Shown piece after piece: positions 2,815-18,081 of a stretch of 64,000 bases of DNA. This DNA is from Lophium mytilinum (Eukaryota; Ascomycota; Dothideomycetes; Mytilinidiales; Mytilinidiaceae). Made by a program: the position numbers and the translations under genes. The notes under the pieces were generated by a model. It was not told the origin of the DNA and ran no database searches. It was given only the letters and a program-made list of their open reading frames with translations. The stretch is taken from NCBI GenBank assembly GCA_010093605.1, contig MU004190.1, positions 806,001-870,000 on the forward strand. The letters run 5' to 3'. Within the stretch, counting starts at the first letter, position 1. Each line of letters starts with the position of its first letter.

Positions 2815-3471
2815 GGTTTGGAATGGTGTTTGGGGTTCTAGGTATAGACTGCATAAAGTCCTAAGCGTACGAGCATTGATAGTAATTTGAACCTACGGTA
2901 CCCCGAATAATTTTGACTCATTGTTAAGGTAACCTTGTACATACCTGATCTTACCTAGGTAACCCCGCAATGTTCTGCACACATTACAACCTCAACGGGT
3001 TAATCAGCAGGCTTATAGAAAAGATACCTTCATGATAGAATCAGTACGAACATGGAGTGGGGTTAGCACGTGCGATTCGTCGCGGCTTTGCGTGAACTAC
3101 TCTAAGGCTCTCTCAAGGCGCCCCTCCTGCCCCTCTATCACCATTAGATTCTAGCACCACTCCCTCTGCTGCGACTGTATCGTGTTATAACATGTATTGA
3201 TATCAAGACATTCATCTTGCATCCTAGCCCTCCTCAAATCCCTCTTAAGCCCGGAATACCGCGCGTTCGCCATTCCTCCCAGCAAAACCTCCGGCATCGG
3301 GCGGAATAAAAGCAGCACCACGCGCGCGCCGCGGAGCCTCCCGACGTTCCACACCACCAACGCACGTCTTTGTTCGATCTGCACTGGCACCCTGCAACGC
3401 TAGAGCATTATACACATCAAACTTCTCGTCGATCGCATAGACCTGCTGGCTGCTTACCACTCTTTTTGATC
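2815..3471. other. Intergenic region, no gene seen
   Basis: This stretch joins the 3' side of the flavoprotein gene to the 5' side of the methyltransferase. Only short overlapping frames occur. A GGAATAAAAG TATA-like stretch near 3301-3310 could belong to the methyltransferase promoter. I see no RNA gene or repeat. Confidence 0.5.
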
Positions 3472-5297
3472 ATGGCTGATGACTCGGTACCTGCAGGAGC
3501 GCTGCAGCAAGAACAGGGGAGTGATTTGCTCGAGGCGGTAGGTCAAAGTCCCGGAATAGGTAGGGGTCTGGAACTGACTTGGCGGTGATTAGTATACCTC
3601 ACAGTCGGAGTCGGATGTGGATTCGGCCTATAATGATATGTATGTTTTTATTCTACTTGTTCTAGTCTTGAAGACTCTGTAAATCGAGATGTGGTACTGA
3701 CATCAGCCTACACAGCGTCTCCGAAACGGCGTCTGTGACGTCTTCAATCCTCGCTGGGAAGTTCGAAAATGGACGGAGGTATCATGCGGTATGTGATGCC
3801 TTCGAATTATACACAAATAGTCAAAAGAGCAGACTTTGCTGACTGTGTACGTGCTTGTAGTATGGACAGCAAGGCAAATATGCTCCGACTTCATGGATCC
3901 CCTGTATTTGGCTGACATTAATTGCTTAGAGTATATGTTCCCAGATGATGAGGTTAGCTAGAGACGTCTCTATTTTTGGAAACCTACTTTGCTAACAGTA
4001 TCATATGTAGCAAGAGCAAGATCGGTAAGCAACGTGGTATACACCTGCGCTTATAACTTTTCCTAACCGTCGCACGAGCCTGGACATCAAATACGCATCG
4101 ATAAATTTAGTGTTTGGTCAAGGAACGGACGGAACGCTGTTTGCTCCAGTCAAGGATCCGCAAACCATCCTAGATATTGGGACGGGGACAGGTATGTTCA
4201 GCGATGTATAGCTCCAATGTACATGTTCAATTCTGACTCGGGGCAGGAATCTGGGCAATCGACTGCGGTGAGTGATCCCGTGTCATTGTCTATAGTGTCT
4301 GACAGCCGAAGGTGAGGAGTACCCAGGAGCTACTGGTAAGTGCATGCTGAGCTTGCAATCCCATCACTTAGGGATCAGAATGCTGAGTCCCAGCTATTAC
4401 TAGTATATGCAACAGACCTGAGTCCAATTCAACCCGCATGGTTTGTACCCATCTACTACCTTCCTTTGATCGTCTGTAGACTAAGCCTAAAACAGGGTGC
4501 CACCGAACGTCAAGGTACATTCATACTACTTCACTCCGACGGTAGGGCCATGCTAATCTCGCCAACCCAAAAGTTTGAAATCGACGACGCGGAAAAGCCA
4601 TGGACCTTCGACCCAAACTTCTTCGACGTCGTCCACACGCGGACCATGACAGGCTGCATCCGAGACTGGCAAAGACTCGCTCAACAAGCCTTCGTGTACG
4701 TAGTCCCCCTTCAAACGAATATCGTCCCTCTCCCCCGAAAACAGCCTACTCACGAAACCCCCCAAGCCACATCAAACCCGGCGGCTACTTAGAATGCCAA
4801 GAAATGGACTACATGACCGTCGTTCAATCCGACTCCCAAAACCCAGGCGAAGCCATACTCCTCTGGTGCAAGCAGCAAGGCGAAGCCGCCGCCAAAGCCG
4901 GCATCTCCCTGCGCACATCCACCAGCTACCTCAAAACGCTCATGGAGAGCGTTGGCTTCGTCGACGTCGTCACGCGCGAATTCAAACTCCCGATTGGGCC
5001 GTGGGCATCGGACAGGACGCTGCGGAATGCGGGCTTGTTGCAGATGAGCGCGATGCTGGAGGGCATGGAGGGGATTAGCTTGAGGCTGTTTACGCATTAT
5101 ACGAATTGGACGCTGGAGGAGCTGCACGTGCTGCTGGCGAAGTGTAGGACGGAGATTAAGGATAAGCGGTTGCATGCTTATTGGACGCTGTGAGTTTTAT
5201 GTTAACCCCCCCCCCGGGGTTTCTGACTGGCGTGAGGTGGTGAGAGAGTGCTGATGGTGCGCGCAGACCAGTCGTCTATGGGCGGAAACCAGAGTAG
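3472..5297 (+). CDS. LaeA-like SAM-dependent methyltransferase
   Basis: Fourteen exons fit a 339-residue protein: 3472-3537, 3605-3639, 3716-3788, 3861-3873, 3930-3952, 4011-4024, 4079-4191, 4247-4267, 4306-4335, 4404-4440, 4496-4514, 4574-4695, 4767-5189 and 5267-5297. The spliced product has the family landmarks in order: SETASVTSSIL, NGRRYHAY, EYMFPDDEQEQDR, the SAM-binding ILDIGTGTGIWAID, ATDLSPIQPAWVPPNVKFEI, DDAEKPWTF, TRTMTGCIRDW, HIKPGGYLE and the terminal VVYGRKP. This family contains LaeA, a nuclear regulator of secondary metabolism, but also many paralogues of unknown substrate, and this copy cannot be assigned to LaeA itself. The intron after the 13-nt exon is GC-AG (3874-3929) with a GCTGAC branch site. 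The 4268-4305 intron (38 nt) is unusually short. Confidence 0.85.
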
Positions 5298-8200
5298 CAC
5301 ATTTGCACCTTCAGAGTTCTTGGCAGGAAGGGTATGGGAACGGTCTTAGTTGTCTATTCTCTTTTTCAACGGTGTGCAAGTTACGACGATGTAAAACCGG
5401 TTAACAAAACAATATAGACGTTTGTGTATCTTTGTAACTTCAAAATCGATTTGATGATTCATTGGCCCCTTTCCTATGCGTTCTCCTTATCCTACTCCGC
5501 CTCTATACGCTCCTCCCTCCGAGATCGCTTCTATGCTCCGTCCCCTCCTTCGCTGCTGTATCGCCCGCCTCGCAATGCGGCTTGCTCGGATTGCGATCCC
5601 AATCTCTGAAAATGACATATACAATAGTGCTAATTGGTACCAATATAGACTTACTCCATCCGCTCAGTCCAGACCTAATCCACGAAATCCGACATCAGCA
5701 TACCTGTCGGTAATACTTCTTGATGCTTTACTCTTTTGGAGGCCTGGGTTCATCGTGATGCTATCTCTTGTAGTAATTGCACGCAACATTTGGTTTCTAG
5801 CGCCTACAAACATCCGCCAAGCTTAGACCAGGGCGTTTACGATGTACGTGTGACACGAGTGTTGGGTACTAGCTCGGCTGCCGTCGATGCATCTAGCGAC
5901 TCAAGGGGTATCTTCAATTCTGTGATTTGGTTTACGTTGCCTAGTAGTGTGTATGCTAAGATAGGTCCGATTGAGAGTGCCGGTCAATTGTATACCAAAA
6001 TCAAGTCGAAATCGCACGGACTCGCTCCCGTTTATACATCTCGCGACATCAAGATAAACAGATTTTTGCGACCTGATTCAGAGCTTCGGTGAAGAATCAG
6101 TTGAGATTGAGTGCAGATCGGACGGAATAGCTCTCCTTTGTGGATACCCCTCGATATATTGAAAGTACCCTCCAGTGCGAGGTATGTTTTGTAGCGTCGC
6201 GGAACTCATATCTTCGAATTGGAACGACGGTTAAGTCGTAGTAGTGTGATCCAGTCGCGATGATTAAAAGGTACTGATGCAGTGAATGCACATCGCGCAG
6301 AAACAATCCATCTTACCCCTTTTCAGCTGGACGAGACCACCACAGCATCTCGGAAACGTCCTCACAGCCTGGTCGCCAAGGCGATCTTCCCGACCTCTCC
6401 AACTTTCTTTTCTCATCCCGAGATCATGCGTCAAGCATGCACTCCACCATCCGCTCTATTTCAGACATCCGCGATGCGATTTGTCTGGCCTAGCCCTTCA
6501 CGGTGAAAGTCTTCTGTGGAAGTGCCGAGGGAGGTAGATAGTCTCACACCTCCGATGTGCTTACAGCATGAGAATAGATCTTAGAAGAGGTTCCATGGTA
6601 CTGGAAACGCAGGACTGGGCTAGGCGAGAATTGAGGTGTCGGGATCGTTCCGGAAGCAGGTTTGCAAAGATGTCGGTTTGATGGTGCGCGCACGCGAGTG
6701 GCTATGTCTGGCTCCGGAGATCGTGATTGATGTGTTCAAGTATGGGTTGCCGGTACCAGGGCCATGGTCATGAACGGGGTTCGAGGGGAAGTAGGTGGGT
6801 CTTCGAGTCCGCTGGGACGGGAACCACGTTTGGATGGCCAGCTTTGGCTGCGCCGCGAGACCTCAAGCCCCCTGTCATCAGATTTACGGTTGTTAGGATT
6901 GTACCGAAGATTTGTTTTCGAACCCGAGCCAGTGGTGGCGGATTTGCCTTGCGTTGGTTATCGTGGAACGAGGATGCGGAGCGGTCTAAGCCCTCTCTGC
7001 AAGGATGGATGTCAGTTATGATGTGGCGAGGTTGCAGGAGGTGGGGTGGTGGATCGATCATGGGATAGATCTAGCGGAATGGCATTTGTGAGGGGCCTGG
7101 GATCGAGGCGAAGACGGAGACGAAAATGATCAGATGATGAGAGGGCGATGCTTGAAGGCTGGGAAGACGTGCATGGAATGGTAGGACAGTATCTCCATGT
7201 TTCAAGGCTGTGATACAGCATGGCACGCATTCAAGACGCCGGGGAATTGGAAAAGCGTGAGGCTTTTCCTTTCTAAAAAGACGAGGAGATGAAGGGGGGT
7301 CGGGTACAAATTGATCAAAAGAGGAGGAAGTCTTTCTTTGATGCACGATGGTAATTCATTCAATCCGGTTCGACTGCTTGGTACATTCTTTGGATCCCTT
7401 GTCTTCCTGTGTCTTCGCATGTCTAAACCATGCTCATGTCTTAGATCTGGGAGCAACTGCGTGAAATATGAAGCAAGCTGCCTTCATCGTGCCCCTCCCG
7501 GCCTAGAATCGGAAGAGCTGTAGGTAGTAGAACCTGGCTTCGGTAGCAGCGAGGTACGGCAAAGCAAGGCACGGCTAAGCGCGGTGAAGCTACTGTACGA
7601 ACAGCTTTGTCACAGGCTGTGGGCTGTACGTAGATATATGTGGCTGCTGCTGTCAGCGATTACGAGTGCCGACCGTTATGTGTCAATGTGACAGTGCCAA
7701 AGAGTACCAACAGCGGGGTGCTGAGAAGGCGTCAATGCACACCGCAAGATGCAGCTTTCCGTCTTGAGCAAGTGCCGACTTATTGCGCTCAGAAGCTGCT
7801 GTTGTGGCGGATACCTGCGTCCTGGAAGACAGTCCTAGACGAATGGACAAGCGCCGTGGTTGTGGGTTCCGATTTCTCGTTCATGCGGCGTTCTGGGTGG
7901 CTACATGTTGTGCTCTTGCATTAGGCAAGTTTGCTTGGATCGGAACATACCGCCGTTTATGTGCGAGTTGCTGGATGCATGCGAGTATGGCCAATGATGG
8001 CGGTCAAGGTCTAGAAAAGTCGCGCCATGTGGTATTGATGCTCTCCAGCCCTGTTTGTGGACAAGTTTCAGCTTCGCATTTATTGTAGGGCGTCCACACA
8101 GCGCGTGGACAGTCTCGACAGTGTACGAAAGGATATACTCTAATGAGGATGATACACACGAGGGTTGGCCCGGAAGCGAGGGAACTACTGCCGACAGACC

Positions 8201-9466: not shown

Positions 9467-12400
9467 ATGAGAGTCCTCAACTGGTCTCTCGCTTTTGCTG
9501 TCGCCGCTGCCATACCGGCACTGGCGTCTACGAGCCACGATGGATCTTGCGGGAACGGCGTCTCATGTATGGGATCAAACTTCGGAAACTGCTGTGGTCC
9601 CGACAACAAGTGCGGCGCTTCTGTTGATTTCTGTGGTTATGGATGCCAGACAGACTTCGGATGGTGTGACGGAACCAAGGGAAGGACTTCTCCGGATCGA
9701 ACATGCGGTGGAGATACCGGTTATCATTGCAAGGGCTCTAGATGGGGTGACTGCTGCAGCGAGTACGGCTACTGGTATGTGAAGACACTCCAACTGATCA
9801 TGAGAAGAAGTATCGAGTGGCTGTGAGAGCTGACCCTTTCCAGTGGATCGAGCAGCGCCCACTGTGGTACAGGATGTAGAGGCGGTTTCGGCATGTGCCA
9901 CGGTTCCGATAACTCTACTACCTCGAACAGCACAGTCAACCACACGACCAGCAGAGTAGATCGGAGGGACTCCCTACCGACACATCTTCCCCTCTCATGC
10001 CCAGGCTCTAATGGGACAATATTCACCGCCGCCAGTGGAGAAGTATTCAGAGTCGAGTGTGCTATTGACCACTATGGCGGAAACATCGAAGGAGACCTCA
10101 TATACACCGAAAGCTTGGAGAAGTGCATTGCAAAGTGCGACTCCAAGAAAGGATGCGTCGATGTTTCGTGGATCAAGGAGTCTGATCAGGGCCCTTGCTA
10201 CTTGAAGAAGTCTCTCGGGGATGCTGTCACGGCTTCAGACGTCTGGGGGGCCGTGAAGGTATATCCTGTCACTGTTTCTCCATCAGTCACGTCGTATGCC
10301 CTGCCGACGCCCACTGGCCTCAAGTGCCCCGAGGCAAACAACACTATCTACCAAGCCGATTGTGGCGCTGAATACTTGGTCCAGTGCTCAACCGATCATG
10401 CCGGAGGCGACATCTCTGGAGGCCCAGTCTACGTGGACAGTCTTGGTGCATGTGTGGCAAAGTGTGCAAAGCACCCGAAGTGCGTAGATGTTTCCTGGGT
10501 TTCAGGGTCCCCCGATGGCCCTTGCTACTTGAAGAAGTCTATCGGAAGTGCCTTGTCACGGACGAATGTCCACGGAGCCAAGCTGATCTCGAGTTGCACC
10601 AAGTCGTCGGCGCTACCAACCATCACCTCGTTGTCTAGTACATCTCTGAGTTTGTCGGTATCATCAATCAGCCTTACAACGCTATCGGCCACAAGCTTGT
10701 CTGTGTCATCGATCAGTCTTTCCACACCATCTGCCACCACCCTGTCAGTGTCATCGCTCAGCCTGTCAACACCTTCGGCCACCAGTCTGTCTTCTATCAG
10801 CCTCTCCCTGTCATCTATCAGTATATCGACACCGTCCACTACTGTCTCCTCGATCAGCCTGTCTTCGATCAGTGTCTCCACTCCATCACTTTCTAGCTTG
10901 TCGGTGTCTTCATACAGCGTGTCAACTCCGTCGATCACGAGTCTATCATCTGCCAGCTTATCTGTGTCCTCTGTCAATGTGACAACACCTTCGATCACCA
11001 GCGTCTCGTCAATCAGCATATCTGTGTCCTCGGTCAATATTACGACACCTTCTATTACCAGTGTCTCGTCATTGAGCATCTCCGTGTCCTCGGCCAATAT
11101 TACAACCCCTTCGATCACTAGCGTCCCGTCCCTTACCGTATCCGAGATTTCAGTGAATGCTTCAACTGTTTCTCTCAATATCTCCACGGTTTCGCCTAGC
11201 TCCTCATCGGTCCCACTCAATACGTCTAGTATTTCGGTGTCTAGCGTCTCTTTGACCTCGTTGCTCACTCTTACTACGTCTGCAGTTGCGAACTCGTCAA
11301 GCCACGCGTCTTCAACGATTTCGAACAGTGCCAATCTGACCACATCGGCCGCGTCTTCAACGATCTCCAACAGTGCCAATTTGACAACGTCCGCTGCCTC
11401 GTCGGGATTCTCGAATAGTGCTAATCTGACCACCTCCGGTGCTTCTTCAACTATCACTAACAGTGCAAACCTCACATCTACCGTCAGCACCACGACAAAT
11501 GCGACAAGTACCAGCTCCAAAGCTTGCACCACTGCAGCAAGCCCTACCGCGTCTTGCGTTCCTTGTGACGGCCAAGGAGGAAGCCTGCCTTACTGCGGCG
11601 CCGACATCAGCACGGATTACTACAAGTTCACCCCTAAGACATGCAACACGGTCACCTACAACTTCGACATTACGAATACCACGTTGTCGCCCGATGGAAT
11701 GGAACGAATTGTGCTACTTGTGAACGGTCAAATGCCCGGTCCTACTATCGAAGCCAACTGGGGCGATACTATCGTCGTCACGGTCAACAACAAGCTCCAG
11801 AATAACGGCACCAGCATCCACTTCCACGGAGCGCGTCAAAATTACACAAACGAATACGACGGAGTTCCATCCATCACGCAGTGTCCGATCGCCCCGGGCG
11901 AGTCTATGACCTATACATTCATTGCTTCGAACTACGGTACTTCGTGGTATCACTCCCATTTCGCCATACAAGCCTGGGAAGGTGTCTTCGGACCGATGAT
12001 CATTCACGGCCCTACTTCACAGGATTTCGACGTTGATGCCGGTACTATCATGCTTCAAGACTGGACGCACGTGACGGTGGACTCCATGTACGACGCTGCG
12101 CAAGATGCTGTCAATGGTGGACCTCGCACTATGGACAATGGCCTTATTAATGGTGTGAATACTTGGGGAGCTGATGGCACGAGCAACCAGACTGGTTCAC
12201 GTTTCGAGTTGTCGACCAAGTTTGTCTCCGGCCAGAGTTACCTCCTTCGCATCGTCAACGTTGCCATCCAGTCTACCTACAAGTTTTACCTAGATGGCCA
12301 CTCGTTGACTGTCATATCCATGGACTATGTACCGATCACGCCCTACAAGACCGATATTTTGAACATCAACATTGGTAAGTCTTTACTTTTAAATGGACAG

Positions 12401-13305
12401 TACTAGGTCATAAGTCTGAACACACAGAACCCCAAGCAGTGGCTCATACTTATGGCCTGGCACTGGAACTCGATTCAGAGGCTGACAAATAATTAGGCCA
12501 ACGTTACATGGTCATTGTCGAAGCCGATCAGCCCGTTAATGACTACTGGATGAGATCGGACAACCAGAACGCGTGCGCTGCCACCACACAAGCTCTTGAC
12601 ATCAAGGGCATCGTTCGATACGATGGAAGCAATGGTACTACACCTACAACAACGGCCTACAACTACACCGGCGAATGCGTTGACGAGCCCTACGCAAGCT
12701 TAGTTCCGTACGTGTCTCTGGATGCGAGCGATGAAGACGAAGAAGATAAGTACGACGTCACGATCTCCGCCAACAGTGCCAACCTCTTCAAATGGTATCT
12801 GTCGGGCACGACCTTCCAATCCCAGTACGACAACCCAACACTCTACCAGTACTACCAGAACGGATCGGCCCCAACATACAGTGGGAACCTTATCTTAGAT
12901 GTTCCCAACGAGGGCGAATGGGTCTACATCATCATCGAGAGCGGCGTCGCCCTTCCGCATCCCATCCATTTGCACGGCCACGACTTCTTCGTCCTTGCTG
13001 AGGGCAACGGTACCTATGACGACAGCGTGGACCTGAAGCTGAGCAACCCTCCCCGCCGCGACACGGCTCTCCTGCCAGCCGCTGGCTACATCGTCCTCGC
13101 CTTCCAGACCGACAATCCAGGCGCCTGGCTCATGCATTGCCACATTGGCTGGCACACGTCCATGGGCTTCGCGCTGCAGTTCCTAGAGATGAAGTCCAAG
13201 ATCAAGGGCACGATCACCGACTCGTGCGTGCTAACCGGTACTTGCGACACTTGGAAGGACTATGCGGACGCGAATAATGTAGAAGTGGAGGATTCTGGTG
13301 TTTAA
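9467..13305 (+). CDS. Secreted chitin-binding, PAN-domain laccase fusion
   Basis: Exons 9467-9774, 9844-12374 and 12497-13305 encode 1215 residues. A signal peptide (1 to about 21) is followed by two hevein-like CBM18 modules (about 27-68 and 79-125), each with eight cysteines. Two PAN/Apple-like modules follow (about 155-240 and 262-350; each has VECAIDHYGG- or VQCSTDHAGG-like, CVDVSW and GPCYLKK segments). Then come a Ser/Thr-rich linker of about 320 residues and a complete multicopper oxidase (about 676-1215). Copper-ligand motifs are intact: HFHG (762), HSH (806), HPIHLHGHDF (1101) and HCHIGWH (1160). The protein ends in DSGV, like the C-terminal plug of ascomycete laccases. One exon runs unbroken from the first PAN module through the linker into the oxidase, so this is a true fusion. 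It probably oxidises phenolics while bound to chitin or cell wall. Confidence 0.9.
11309..11488 (+). repeat. Four 45-bp tandem repeats in laccase linker
   Basis: Four in-frame units starting at 11309, 11354, 11399 and 11444 encode variants of SSTISNSANLTTSAA. They lie at the end of the Ser/Thr-rich linker, whose earlier part (from about 10626) repeats SVSSISLSTPSAT-like units. The potential N-glycosylation sites and dense Ser/Thr suggest a glycosylated, extended spacer. The copies differ at several synonymous sites, so they are not freshly duplicated. Confidence 0.8.
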
Positions 13306-13549: not shown

Positions 13550-16500
13550 TATCACAATACTTACGGGCCTTACAGGCCTTATACGCAACACTAAAAAATT
13601 AATAACTCTATTAAATTTTGCGCGTTTCTTCTACTATATTACAGCCTTATTAAACACTATTAGATTATTATTTTTACGGGCGCGTTTTATTTCTAGGGCC
13701 TTATTAGGTCCCTAGAATAATGCCGGGCGCTTTAAATTTCTACCTATTTTTCTACCTCTTTTTCTACCTCTTTTTCTACTCCCTTTAGGACGACCTCTCT
13801 TAGCCTTTCTAGGAGGACTAGGACTATTATCTAGAATAGGCTTAGTATTAAGAATTAACTTATCTAAGCCCTTAATATTTACACGCTTATAGTTATATTA
13901 AATAGAGTTCCAGGGCGGCAGCCCTATACTCTTAGCATGCTAAGAAGCTAGTAGAGGTGGAATTAGCTATAAATTTAGGTATAGATCTCTATATAGCGTG
14001 CTATATATAATATTCTTATTATCTAGATTACTAAGAAATATATTCTTATTAATTTTAACGTCCTTCTTTAGTACCCCTACTTCTTTCTTATACCTTTTAG
14101 CGTGCTCTATAGGCTTCTTCTTCTTTTTATTCTTATTCTTATTACTACTACTCTTATTAATATTATTTAGCTTTTCTATAATACTAGCATTAAATTTTAT
14201 AAGGTTATATATTAGCTTAGTATTAATCTATAGAGTTCTTCTTTTTTTAGCCTAAGCCTCTTTCTATAAATAAGTATTAGTAGAACGCTTAGTAACCTCT
14301 ATACTAGTTAAAGCCCGCTTATTTATCTACCTGTATTATTTTCTATATTATAGCTAAGAAAGCCTTAATAGTATAATAGTAAATTCTATATTACTTTATA
14401 GTTAATAGAGCTTAGCCTTTCTCTCTAATTACTTTATAATCTTAGCCTCTAAGGCCTTAATTTATATAGTAATCTTAGCCGCGTTATTATCTAGAAGGCC
14501 TGCGTAGGCGTTAATAATATAGAGGGCTAAGTCTTATATTTTATTAAGCTTAAGAATATATTCTAATACTAAATTACTATAGAGAACTATGCCCTCTATA
14601 AAATAAGGCTACTAATCCTCTTAAACCTTATAGGCTAATATAATATACTAGCGGGGGTAAATATATTCTAAGGGAATAGGCGTGCCTATAAGAATTACAC
14701 GTAGAAGGTAATATGCGTATAGTAGGCTAAATTAACGCGGGTTATTATATATATAATAAGATAGAGTCTAATTCTTATTAGTATACCGCGTACGCTTTAA
14801 AAAAGGTAAGGCGTAAGCTTTACAGAGTAAATTAAATACCCGGAGGAGTGTAAAGTAAGTAATCTTTCTATTAATAGATGTAAAGAACGTTTAGTAATAA
14901 TTAAGAGTAATTTTCCTAGGTAGGGCGGTCTTATACTAATATTCTTCCTCTTTTAAATAGTATTCTAGAATATTAATCTACTCTTTTAATTTTCTTATAT
15001 ATCTATTAAGGCTTAGCTAGGGGTTTATAAAGTACTTTAAGGCTCTATTTATACCTTTAGAGTATATAGAGCTAGTAGCTTTAAGATTTAGAAGCTTTCT
15101 AGCGAGGTGTAAGTTAATAAAGTTAAATAAGAAAATAAGATAAGGCAGGCAGTATAATAGGTACGCCGGTGTAATATAATATATATAGGCTATATATAGG
15201 CTACTCTTATATATTTTTAGTTTATAGTAAGTATATAGGTAAAAACGGGTAGGCTATAGGGCCTTATATATAAGCTTGCACCTACCTATATATAAGATTA
15301 ATATAGAAGGCGTACTAAGTATACCTCTATATACTAAATCCTTATAATATACCTATCTTTAACACGCGCGGAGTATATAGATAATAAAAATAATAGAAAA
15401 ATTTAAAATAATAATAAAAGAAGCTCTAAAACTTACTAGATATAGACTATTATTAAGTACTCTTCTTTCTTTATATACGTGTTCTAGAACTAGGGCTTAT
15501 TAATTTTAAGAAGGTAATCTAAAACCGCTTAGTAATTTTTTTTAAGCTCTTCTTCTATCTTAGATTAAATATATAGCTAGAATATAGCCTTAGCTGCCTT
15601 TCTTTTAGACTAGGTATAGCTCTTGCCTTTATTAACGCTATTATTAATATACTTCTTTATTACCTTTACAGTATACTACTAATAAAGCTATAGAATAATA
15701 CTAATAAACTTACCCGCTAAAAGGGCAGCTCTTAGCCTCTTTCTAAAGTTAGCTATAATTACTTTAGGCCCGCGGTTCTCTTACTATATATTTCTATTAG
15801 CTATAGCTAATAGAAAGGCCTAGGAGGCCTTATCCTCCTTCTTTATAAGAGACTATATAGCCGGAAAGAAGTATCTAGTATTTATTACGCCTATAATAAG
15901 GCTAAGCTTTAGCTTTACCCTATTTATATTAAATATAGCGTCTATTTAATAATAGTAGTCTATAATAAAGCGCTTGCTAAGATTCTCTTAGCCTAGTAGC
16001 TAGAAGACTACTTACTTAAGATTGCGGGCAATATAGTAGCTAGTGCGCGGGTTAACTTTATAGAAGTAGTAAGAGTAATATTTAAAGCTATTTTTATAGA
16101 GAGATAGCTCTAAGGTAGAGAGGGCGTTCTACTTTATACGCGTATTATATAGAAGAGTACGCAGCTTATAAGCTATATTATAGTACTTTTTTTTAGATAT
16201 TTTTAATTTCTAGAGCCCTAGTTAACGCGCTATAGTTGCATAAGTCTCTTCTATACAGCGTAGCTTAATAGTATAGTAATAGGCCTTAATAGCCTTAGGC
16301 TAGCAATCTTAGTAAGTAATATAGGCTATTAAATTAGGTATTATTAAGTGCGCGGTATATAGAACCGCGCTATATTTATAGATATAATTAGGGTATATAA
16401 CTATAGAGATCTAGGTATAGTTCTTTAGGTTTTTATATAGCTTTTTATAGGCTATATAGACTACCTATAAGTAGTTAAATTATAATACTATAGTATTCTC

Positions 16501-17685
16501 TCTCTATCTACTACTAGGCCCCTTCTTCTTAAAGTCTATAAGCTTATAATAGTTCTAAGTATCCTTACTATAGTATTTATAAATAATATAAATATACTAT
16601 TTTTTAGTATCTTTCTATAGTAAGCTGCTATTATGTACGCCTAAAAACCCCTTAAAAAAGAAGTAATTAAGGTACCTCTTAATAGCCTTATCTAGCGTCT
16701 TATACGCCTTACTATTCTTTAGTTTATAGAGGTAGTAAGCCGGAATTTAATTAATTATCCCTTTAATAATAGGCACTAATTAGGGGTGTAATTAGGGGCT
16801 TAAAACCTATAAAGGGCGAGGCGCAGGGGGCGTTAAAGGGTTAGAATTAAGCTAGGGCTTATTAGAGAGTATATAGTAATATTCTAGGGCTATAGAAGTA
16901 TAGTAGTAAGAAGTTATATATATATAATATTCTTAGTAAGTAGGTAATAACTTAATAGAATCTAAAAGTAATAGAAACTTAGTAGAATACGCTAGTAGAC
17001 TACTTTTAGTATAATTTATAGGGGCTAGAGTCTTAAAAGGTATAGGACTAGAGCTCTAGATACTTAGCTAGTATAAAAGTATACTCTATGTAGGTATAAG
17101 AGGTATAAGAGGTATTAATTTAATTAGAATTAGCCTCTCTTTACGGCTAGGCGTATAGCTATAGGCCTAGCTATTTATATAAGTATATAATTAAGTAAAT
17201 TAAGTAGGCTGCAGGCGTAAAGGCTATATAAAATAGAAAGGCTATTAATAGAAAGACTATATATAGGCTAAGTATAGTAATAGAATAATATAAGGTAGTA
17301 GAGAAGGCCTTTTAATTAAGAATTTATATAAAGAAAGAGGGCTTTCTTTATTATCTAATAATAGATTAGATATTACGTATATAGAGAATAGATAGAAAAT
17401 AAAGATAGAAGAGAAAGAAGCTATTTAACGTTAAAATTAATAAAATTAGTAAGGATTTCTATATTAAATACACCTACACAGGCGCGTTAAGTGCGCGGTT
17501 CCCCGCTATTAATTAATAATATATTCTTGCTTCTATCTAAACCCTACGCGCTAGCTATAATGCATAGACACGTAGCTATTAATCTATTGCGTTAGATTCT
17601 AATTGCGATGAATATTAGTAGAGTTATAATTTTTTACGTGGGGGGCTACTAACGTGGTAGTATTAATTTTAAAGATTTTATGTTG

Positions 17686-17753
17686 TTTATAAAATAAGCT
17701 AGCGAGCACGTAACGAAGGGGCCTTTTTAAGGGGCCTGCCCGGAGACCGCCCG
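17686..17753 (-). repeat. Right terminal inverted repeat of transposon
   Basis: This is an exact reverse complement of the left repeat over 68 bp and ends in GACCGCCCG. Pairing stops where the AT-rich interior begins. Confidence 0.9.
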
Positions 17754-17762
17754 TATATCCTT
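17754..17762. repeat. 9-bp target site duplication, right copy
   Basis: TATATCCTT is identical to the left copy, which argues that neither flank has changed since insertion. Confidence 0.85.
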
Positions 17763-18081
17763 CTGAACCTTTTCTAGTGTAAATAATATGAACTAAAGCT
17801 TCGTGCTATTTTCTATATCTGTAACATGTTCCTAGCCTTGTTCATCTTCGAGGTCAACGCTGCTGTGACGAAGAGTTTCCAGACGTCGAGGTGATCACCC
17901 CTGAGTCGATCATCGCCCTGAGCGGGCAAGTGAATTGAACCCTGCCAAGCCAGCCCCATGCACGAGCCACGTGGTGAATTCAACCTCAGCCCCTTCCGTC
18001 TGACCATACGCACACCACAATACACCCACACTCCTTCCCTTCCCACTCTTTTCCAATACCAAGCATGCCCGTCCGCGCGTA

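Follow-up and report, generated by a model that had tools for sequence, protein, structure and literature searches.

A single spliced reading frame in the window analysed here (the whole 64-kb stretch of DNA, G000:C10:806001-870000) encodes a protein composed, in order, of a signal peptide, two eight-cysteine CBM18-type modules, two PAN_4 modules, a 308-residue linker and a complete asco-laccase-type multicopper oxidase (MCO). Judging from the sequence, we consider it reasonably probable that a single gene here encodes a modular, secreted MCO that is retained on chitin and arose by domain shuffling. The first-pass annotation of this DNA had proposed the same order and extent of modules, which Pfam, the cysteine patterns and translation together bore out. 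For comparisons within the species, we searched the genome from which the window was taken (43.2 Mb in 24 contigs).

Gene structure and the one-gene question

The gene runs on the plus strand from an ATG at 9467 to a stop codon at 13303-13305. Its three exons encode 1215 amino acids with no internal stops. A single spliced frame had been claimed previously, and on translation its coordinates proved correct. The features, in window coordinates, are as follows.

9467-9774, plus strand: exon 1 (translation)
9467..9529, plus strand: signal peptide, residues 1-21 (translation, by eye)
9548..9667, plus strand: CBM18-type module 1, residues 28-67 (eight Cys; HMM built from the same genome)
9704..9898, plus strand: CBM18-type module 2, residues 80-121, interrupted by an intron (Pfam below cut-off; relatives in the same genome)
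9775..9843, plus strand: intron 1, GTATGT...TTCCAG, phase 2, splitting the codon for the fifth Cys of CBM18-type module 2
9844-12374, plus strand: exon 2 (translation)
9998..10276, plus strand: PAN_4 module 1, residues 155-247 (Pfam; borders by eye)
10325..10594, plus strand: PAN_4 module 2, residues 264-353 (Pfam, best stretch 286-333; borders by eye)
10595..11518, plus strand: Ser/Thr linker, residues 354-661 (composition, repeats)
11519..12374, plus strand: first part of the MCO, from residue 662 (Cu-oxidase_3 and most of Cu-oxidase; includes Gln912)
12375..12496, plus strand: intron 2, GTAAGT...AATTAG (translation)
12497-13305, plus strand: exon 3 (translation)
12497..13305, plus strand: last part of the MCO, to residue 1215 (Cu-oxidase_2, HPIHLHGH, HCHIGWH, C-terminal DSGV, stop)

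The splice joining 9774 to 9844 is supported by the placement of intron 1, whose position and phase are matched in four other CBM18 modules of the same genome. One further row of that scan (L036, minus strand) was not CBM18-like and was excluded. Removal of intron 2 restores the stretch ...NINIGQRYMVIVEA..., which aligns to fungal laccases with no gap.

The PAN modules, the linker and the oxidase all lie in one open exon, and the earlier claim that this exon is unbroken across the PAN-linker-oxidase junction was confirmed, with no in-frame stop. By itself the openness of the linker is weak evidence for one gene, since the antisense strand over it is also open, for 354 codons. We regard that antisense frame as a side effect of the repeats in the linker. 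GC content by codon position was of no help in judging the linker. It is conceivable that two adjacent genes, one for a CBM18-PAN wall protein and one for a separate laccase, only appear to be joined by an open linker frame. Consistent with this are the low complexity of the linker, its open antisense strand, and two out-of-frame ATGs (11157 and 11499), from which peptides with a hydrophobic segment start and which a spliced oxidase mRNA might use. However, the frame is identical on both flanks of the linker and contains neither a stop nor a Met from residue 121 to 721. Because there is no in-frame Met over that distance, a start inside exon 2 could not give a secreted separate oxidase, and such an oxidase would require an unseen upstream exon spliced to the same frame. 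We therefore consider two genes very unlikely.

Directly downstream of the gene, positions 14000-18000 of the window form an AT-rich tract (28-36% GC) whose dinucleotide frequencies are strongly skewed in the manner of RIP (composite index 0.86 to 1.74). This tract is probably a RIP-mutated transposon relic. Taken with the introns and the DSG-tailed laccase of ascomycete type, it suggests that the DNA comes from a filamentous ascomycete.

The N-terminal modules and the linker

The two PAN modules were recognized by Pfam as PAN_4 (PF14295; 65.7 bits, 3.9e-18, in two stretches), well above the cut-off of 27. Module 1 is 49% identical to a PAN unit at G000:C14:1021433-1021753, and at least 49 matches to PAN units like those of this gene occur in the genome, in many Ser/Thr-rich proteins. 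At the level of sequence, the PAN assignment and that of the oxidase are beyond doubt. A structure model of the PAN pair, made from the single sequence, had a mean pLDDT of 37.5, which is too poor to inform. Elsewhere in the genome, many PAN-like units and Ser-rich linkers occur in a 7991-codon open frame on the minus strand of contig C2 (G000:C2, ~226-250 kb; L013-L020, L029), beside which sits a 942-codon frame of similar build. The larger frame is possibly a giant single-exon wall protein.

The linker had been described as a Ser/Thr linker of 320 residues; its character stands, and its measured length is 308 residues. Ser and Thr make up 56.2% of it, it carries 12 N-glycosylation sequons and no Met, and it is partly made of 45-base and 60-base repeat units. 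Inspection by eye shows no hydrophobic tail of the GPI kind.

The CBM18 modules required more than one line of evidence. The first 130 residues contain 16 Cys in two eight-Cys patterns, and both modules have CBM18/hevein-type spacing. The only Pfam match to Chitin_bind_1 (PF00187) covers residues 80-115, in module 2, at 18.5 bits, which is below the cut-off of 27.8; module 1 had no Chitin_bind_1 match in Pfam. Among the matches listed, relatives in the same genome are 44-59% identical, and the best relative of module 2, at 59%, lies in a gene (L048) where Chitin_bind_1 scores 28.8 bits and passes the cut-off. A search of solved structures returned wheat germ agglutinin with a whole-chain E of 1.1e-5 and single stretches of 10-12 bits; the two alignments shown span module 2 and a few preceding residues. 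With an HMM built from four other CBM18 modules of this genome, module 2 scored 58.0 bits and module 1 scored 30.2. That score of 30.2 was reached by 0 of 500 shuffles of module 1 with Cys held fixed, the best of which gave 21.7, and by 0 of 500 full shuffles, where the best was 6.8. A single-sequence structure model of module 1 had a mean pLDDT of 43.6, and Foldseek with that low-confidence model gave 0 matches, which weighs neither way.

For the first-pass annotation, failure of domain searches to find CBM18 in the first 130 residues would have counted as a refutation. Pfam taken alone goes halfway towards that, with module 2 under the cut-off and nothing for module 1, while the Cys patterns, the HMM from the same genome, the 59% relative and the shared intron all favor the assignment. 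We conclude that both modules appear to be CBM18-type, as supported by the genome's other CBM18 modules despite the Pfam shortfall, and that this assignment is weaker than those of the PAN modules and the MCO. As a separate observation, a 1446-codon frame on contig C20 (G000:C20, ~632.4-633.1 kb; L002-L004, L057) contains three or more CBM18 matches that pass the cut-off of Pfam.

The sugar-contact positions of hevein are Ser19 and the aromatic residues at 21, 23 and 30. At these positions, in hevein numbering, module 1 has G, D, K and F and module 2 has S, Y, Y and H. The comparison covered six modules in total, found with a search pattern that misses intron-split modules and those with extra Cys. 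Apart from module 1, the modules found all carry S at the first position, Y at the second, Y or W at the third and Y or H at the fourth; besides module 2, two of these five share its exact S, Y, Y, H and two more have S, Y, Y/W, Y. Given its contact residues, module 1 probably does not bind chitin through a hevein-type site, and module 2 is probably the only one of the pair that does bind it. The earlier description of two chitin-binding modules thus holds as to two CBM18-type modules but finds no support as to chitin binding by the first, whose contacts are degenerate. The His at the fourth contact of module 2 is a point that may count against chitin anchoring.

The oxidase and its T1 pocket

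All three cupredoxin domains passed their Pfam cut-offs (20.4-21), with 138.4 bits for Cu-oxidase_2, 136.8 for Cu-oxidase_3 and 111 for Cu-oxidase. NCBIfam models matched pieces of the MCO only below cut-off. The copper ligands of MCOs are carried by the motif set HxH, HxH, HxxHxH and HCHxxxH. This set is complete here, as HFH at 762-764, HSH at 806-808, HPIHLHGH from 1101 and HCHIGWH from 1160, and it aligns with 5lm8 and 3sqr. These two solved structures match nearly end to end (E 7.3e-151 for 5lm8; E 4.4e-145 for 3sqr, aligned through the last residue). The C-terminal plug, DSG followed by a hydrophobic residue, reads DSGV here, DSGI in 3sqr and DSGL in all four paralogues of the same genome that were read to the end. 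By sequence, the oxidase is an ascomycete-laccase-type MCO, CAZy AA1_3-like. At that level the complete laccase-type oxidase of the first-pass annotation is upheld by the three Pfam domains, the copper motifs and the DSGV terminus.

The pocket near the T1 copper is less ordinary. PMC6218047 describes a strongly conserved Glu or Asp in this pocket that is important when phenols are oxidised, and whose place is taken by His253 in the A. niger enzyme. In our protein the position is Gln912 rather than Glu or Asp, within an ungapped stretch (IVNVAIQST vs INVGIDSH of 3sqr). Glu497 of 3sqr is replaced by Met1169, while Phe1171 occupies the axial position. The acidic residue is typical of AA1_3 enzymes but not defining by sequence, and McoG departs from it too (PMC6218047). 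We compared six MCO loci of this genome. The four asco-laccase-like paralogues among them have Asp, Glu, Asn and Glu; one locus of another MCO type (L009) has Phe, and the position was unreadable in L010 owing to introns. Neutral pocket residues are therefore found elsewhere in the genome too. The Asn belongs to the laccase paralogue L058 (G000:C14:704200-706100), where the genome departs from Glu/Asp for a second time.

A pocket with Gln912 suggests that the enzyme prefers substrates other than those of an ordinary phenol laccase. With Gln in place of Glu or Asp, one cannot take ordinary laccase activity for granted, and a simple role in melanin formation or against host phenolics is weakened. 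Wall melanisation and defence against host phenolics, both offered previously as roles, accordingly find no support. Nor did a profile scan of 20 of the 35 window frames of at least 180 codons (chosen by eye, with introns limiting reach) match any polyketide synthase, which leaves a connection with melanin synthesis unsupported here. We discarded a melanin or secondary-metabolite cluster on the same count.

Likely function, origin and relation to known enzymes

Our preferred reading is that the modules probably hold the oxidase on chitin. The protein would be secreted, and CBM18 module 2 would retain it on the chitin of its own wall, of another fungus or of an arthropod. Module 1 and the PAN pair may assist through protein or glycan contacts. 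The long linker, probably O-mannosylated, would let the oxidase extend from its anchor and, with O2, oxidise small molecules near the chitin surface, and the oxidation products could couple to neighbouring wall material. An oxidase tethered to chitin was already the proposal of the first-pass annotation; it remains the best reading of the architecture and of the module 2 contacts, with localisation and role as inferences.

Other ways of using the same parts deserve consideration. The protein might be a wall glycoprotein held mainly by its glycans and PAN modules, with the CBM18 pair reduced to a weak vestige that has no hold on chitin. The lost contact residues of module 1 and the CBM18 scores under the Pfam cut-off are consistent with this, as is the nearest PAN pair in the genome (on C14, first unit 49% identical), which sits in a Ser/Thr-rich protein whose 612-residue frame contains PAN only according to Pfam. 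However, module 2 retains S, Y, Y at the first three contacts and reaches 58.0 bits with the HMM of the other modules in the genome, and we regard retention mainly by glycans and PAN as unlikely. Alternatively, the main job could be shielding or attack on non-self, in which the CBM18 modules would dock on the chitin of fungi or arthropods outside the cell, and the oxidase would act there on defence compounds or a target surface. CBM18 has been linked both to the recognition of chitin and to disturbing the way a host senses it (PMC7551824), and a protein that by eye lacks a GPI-like tail could leave the cell. Yet no feature in the window or the gene separates self from non-self chitin, and we would give this role only a slim chance.

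Returning to the reading of an oxidase anchored on chitin, a bolder version would have the pocket (Gln912, Met1169, Phe1171) shifted away from ordinary phenol oxidation, so that the enzyme oxidises a different small reductant, or groups bound to the wall, at the surface of the chitin, while the PAN pair and the 308-residue stalk set its place and reach. It would then be a machine for local oxidative modification of the wall, of a type that is still uncharacterised. We offer it as speculation that is doubtful in its full form.

The simplest account of how the protein arose appears to be domain shuffling of CBM18 and PAN modules onto a resident laccase, given that the same genome puts these modules before other catalytic domains. 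One such gene (L048:4624-6357; G000:C15, ~1.698 Mb) has CBM18 ahead of FAD_binding_4 (91.2 bits) and BBE (40.4 bits) in Pfam, an AA7-like oxidase. It resembles our gene in its signal-type N-terminus, a CBM18 59% identical to module 2, a Ser/Thr linker and then an oxidase, but has a single CBM18, no PAN, and a flavin rather than a copper enzyme. The combination of CBM18 with AA7 has been described as recurrent (PMC3620520). Another gene (L045, G000:C15:335000-344000, gene ~338-341 kb; minus strand, ~2963-6250) starts with two CBM18-type modules, followed by a Ser-rich linker and PAN_4, and leads into a stretch resembling phospholipase A2 that scores 17.3 bits, below the cut-off of 32.1, and contains CCxxHxxC. 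Its CBM18-type modules are 45-52% identical to ours and have the intron in the same place; in contrast to our gene, its linker precedes the PAN module, and the next exon is phospholipase A2-like with no oxidase. One genome thus re-uses CBM18 and PAN modules ahead of unrelated enzymes. At least 13 places in the genome contain an MCO (14 matches, with the 11 places of a second search included). Among the matches listed, only the MCO described here has CBM18 or PAN within 25 kb, and the 12 others have none (nearest ~26 kb, on C17), so no further copy confirms the fusion.

If the protein is both bound to chitin and active, it would allow a direct test of whether fungi harden, colour or shield their walls by setting oxidases on chitin. 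For AA1 enzymes bearing carbohydrate-binding modules, the CAZy authors raised this as a possibility in 2013 (PMC3620520). The altered T1 pocket also yields a clear biochemical prediction.

The statement that fungal laccases normally lack binding modules, made in the first-pass annotation, is too strong. Levasseur et al. reported AA1 joined to CBM1, CBM18 and CBM20 in 2013 (PMC3620520), and PMC6700816 characterised a laccase with CBM20. CBM18 has also been found with glyoxal oxidase (PMC8185036) and with chitin deacetylases (PMC7551824). In the main texts of open-licence articles, we found no paper that brings together laccase, CBM18 and a PAN domain, and none that contains any of six set phrases for AA1-CBM18 or chitin-binding laccases. 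That a PAN-bearing version is absent from print can be said only weakly. The CBM18-AA1 kind is already known; the build with a PAN pair and an unusual active-site pocket may be new.

Three known systems are closest. The AA1-CBM18 oxidases of PMC3620520 share both partners, CBM18 and an AA1 oxidase, and were a database observation whose authors suggested action on chitin; the relevant passages of that paper mention no PAN, linker length or characterised member, whereas our protein places two CBM18-type modules, two PAN_4 modules and 308 linker residues before the oxidase. ZtrLac1A, the characterised CBM20 laccase of Zymoseptoria tritici, is likewise an ascomycete AA1_3 laccase with a carbohydrate-binding module, for which ligand binding was shown (PMC6700816). 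Its module is a starch-binding CBM20, and PAN and chitin binding go unmentioned in the pertinent parts of that report. Over the whole catalytic part, the closest solved oxidases are A. niger McoG (5lm8/5lww/5lwx) and the B. aclada laccase (3sqr), which have the same copper motifs. Their matched chains, however, are 549-580 residues long without CBM18 or PAN, and in the pocket McoG has His and 3sqr has Asp, against Gln912 here.
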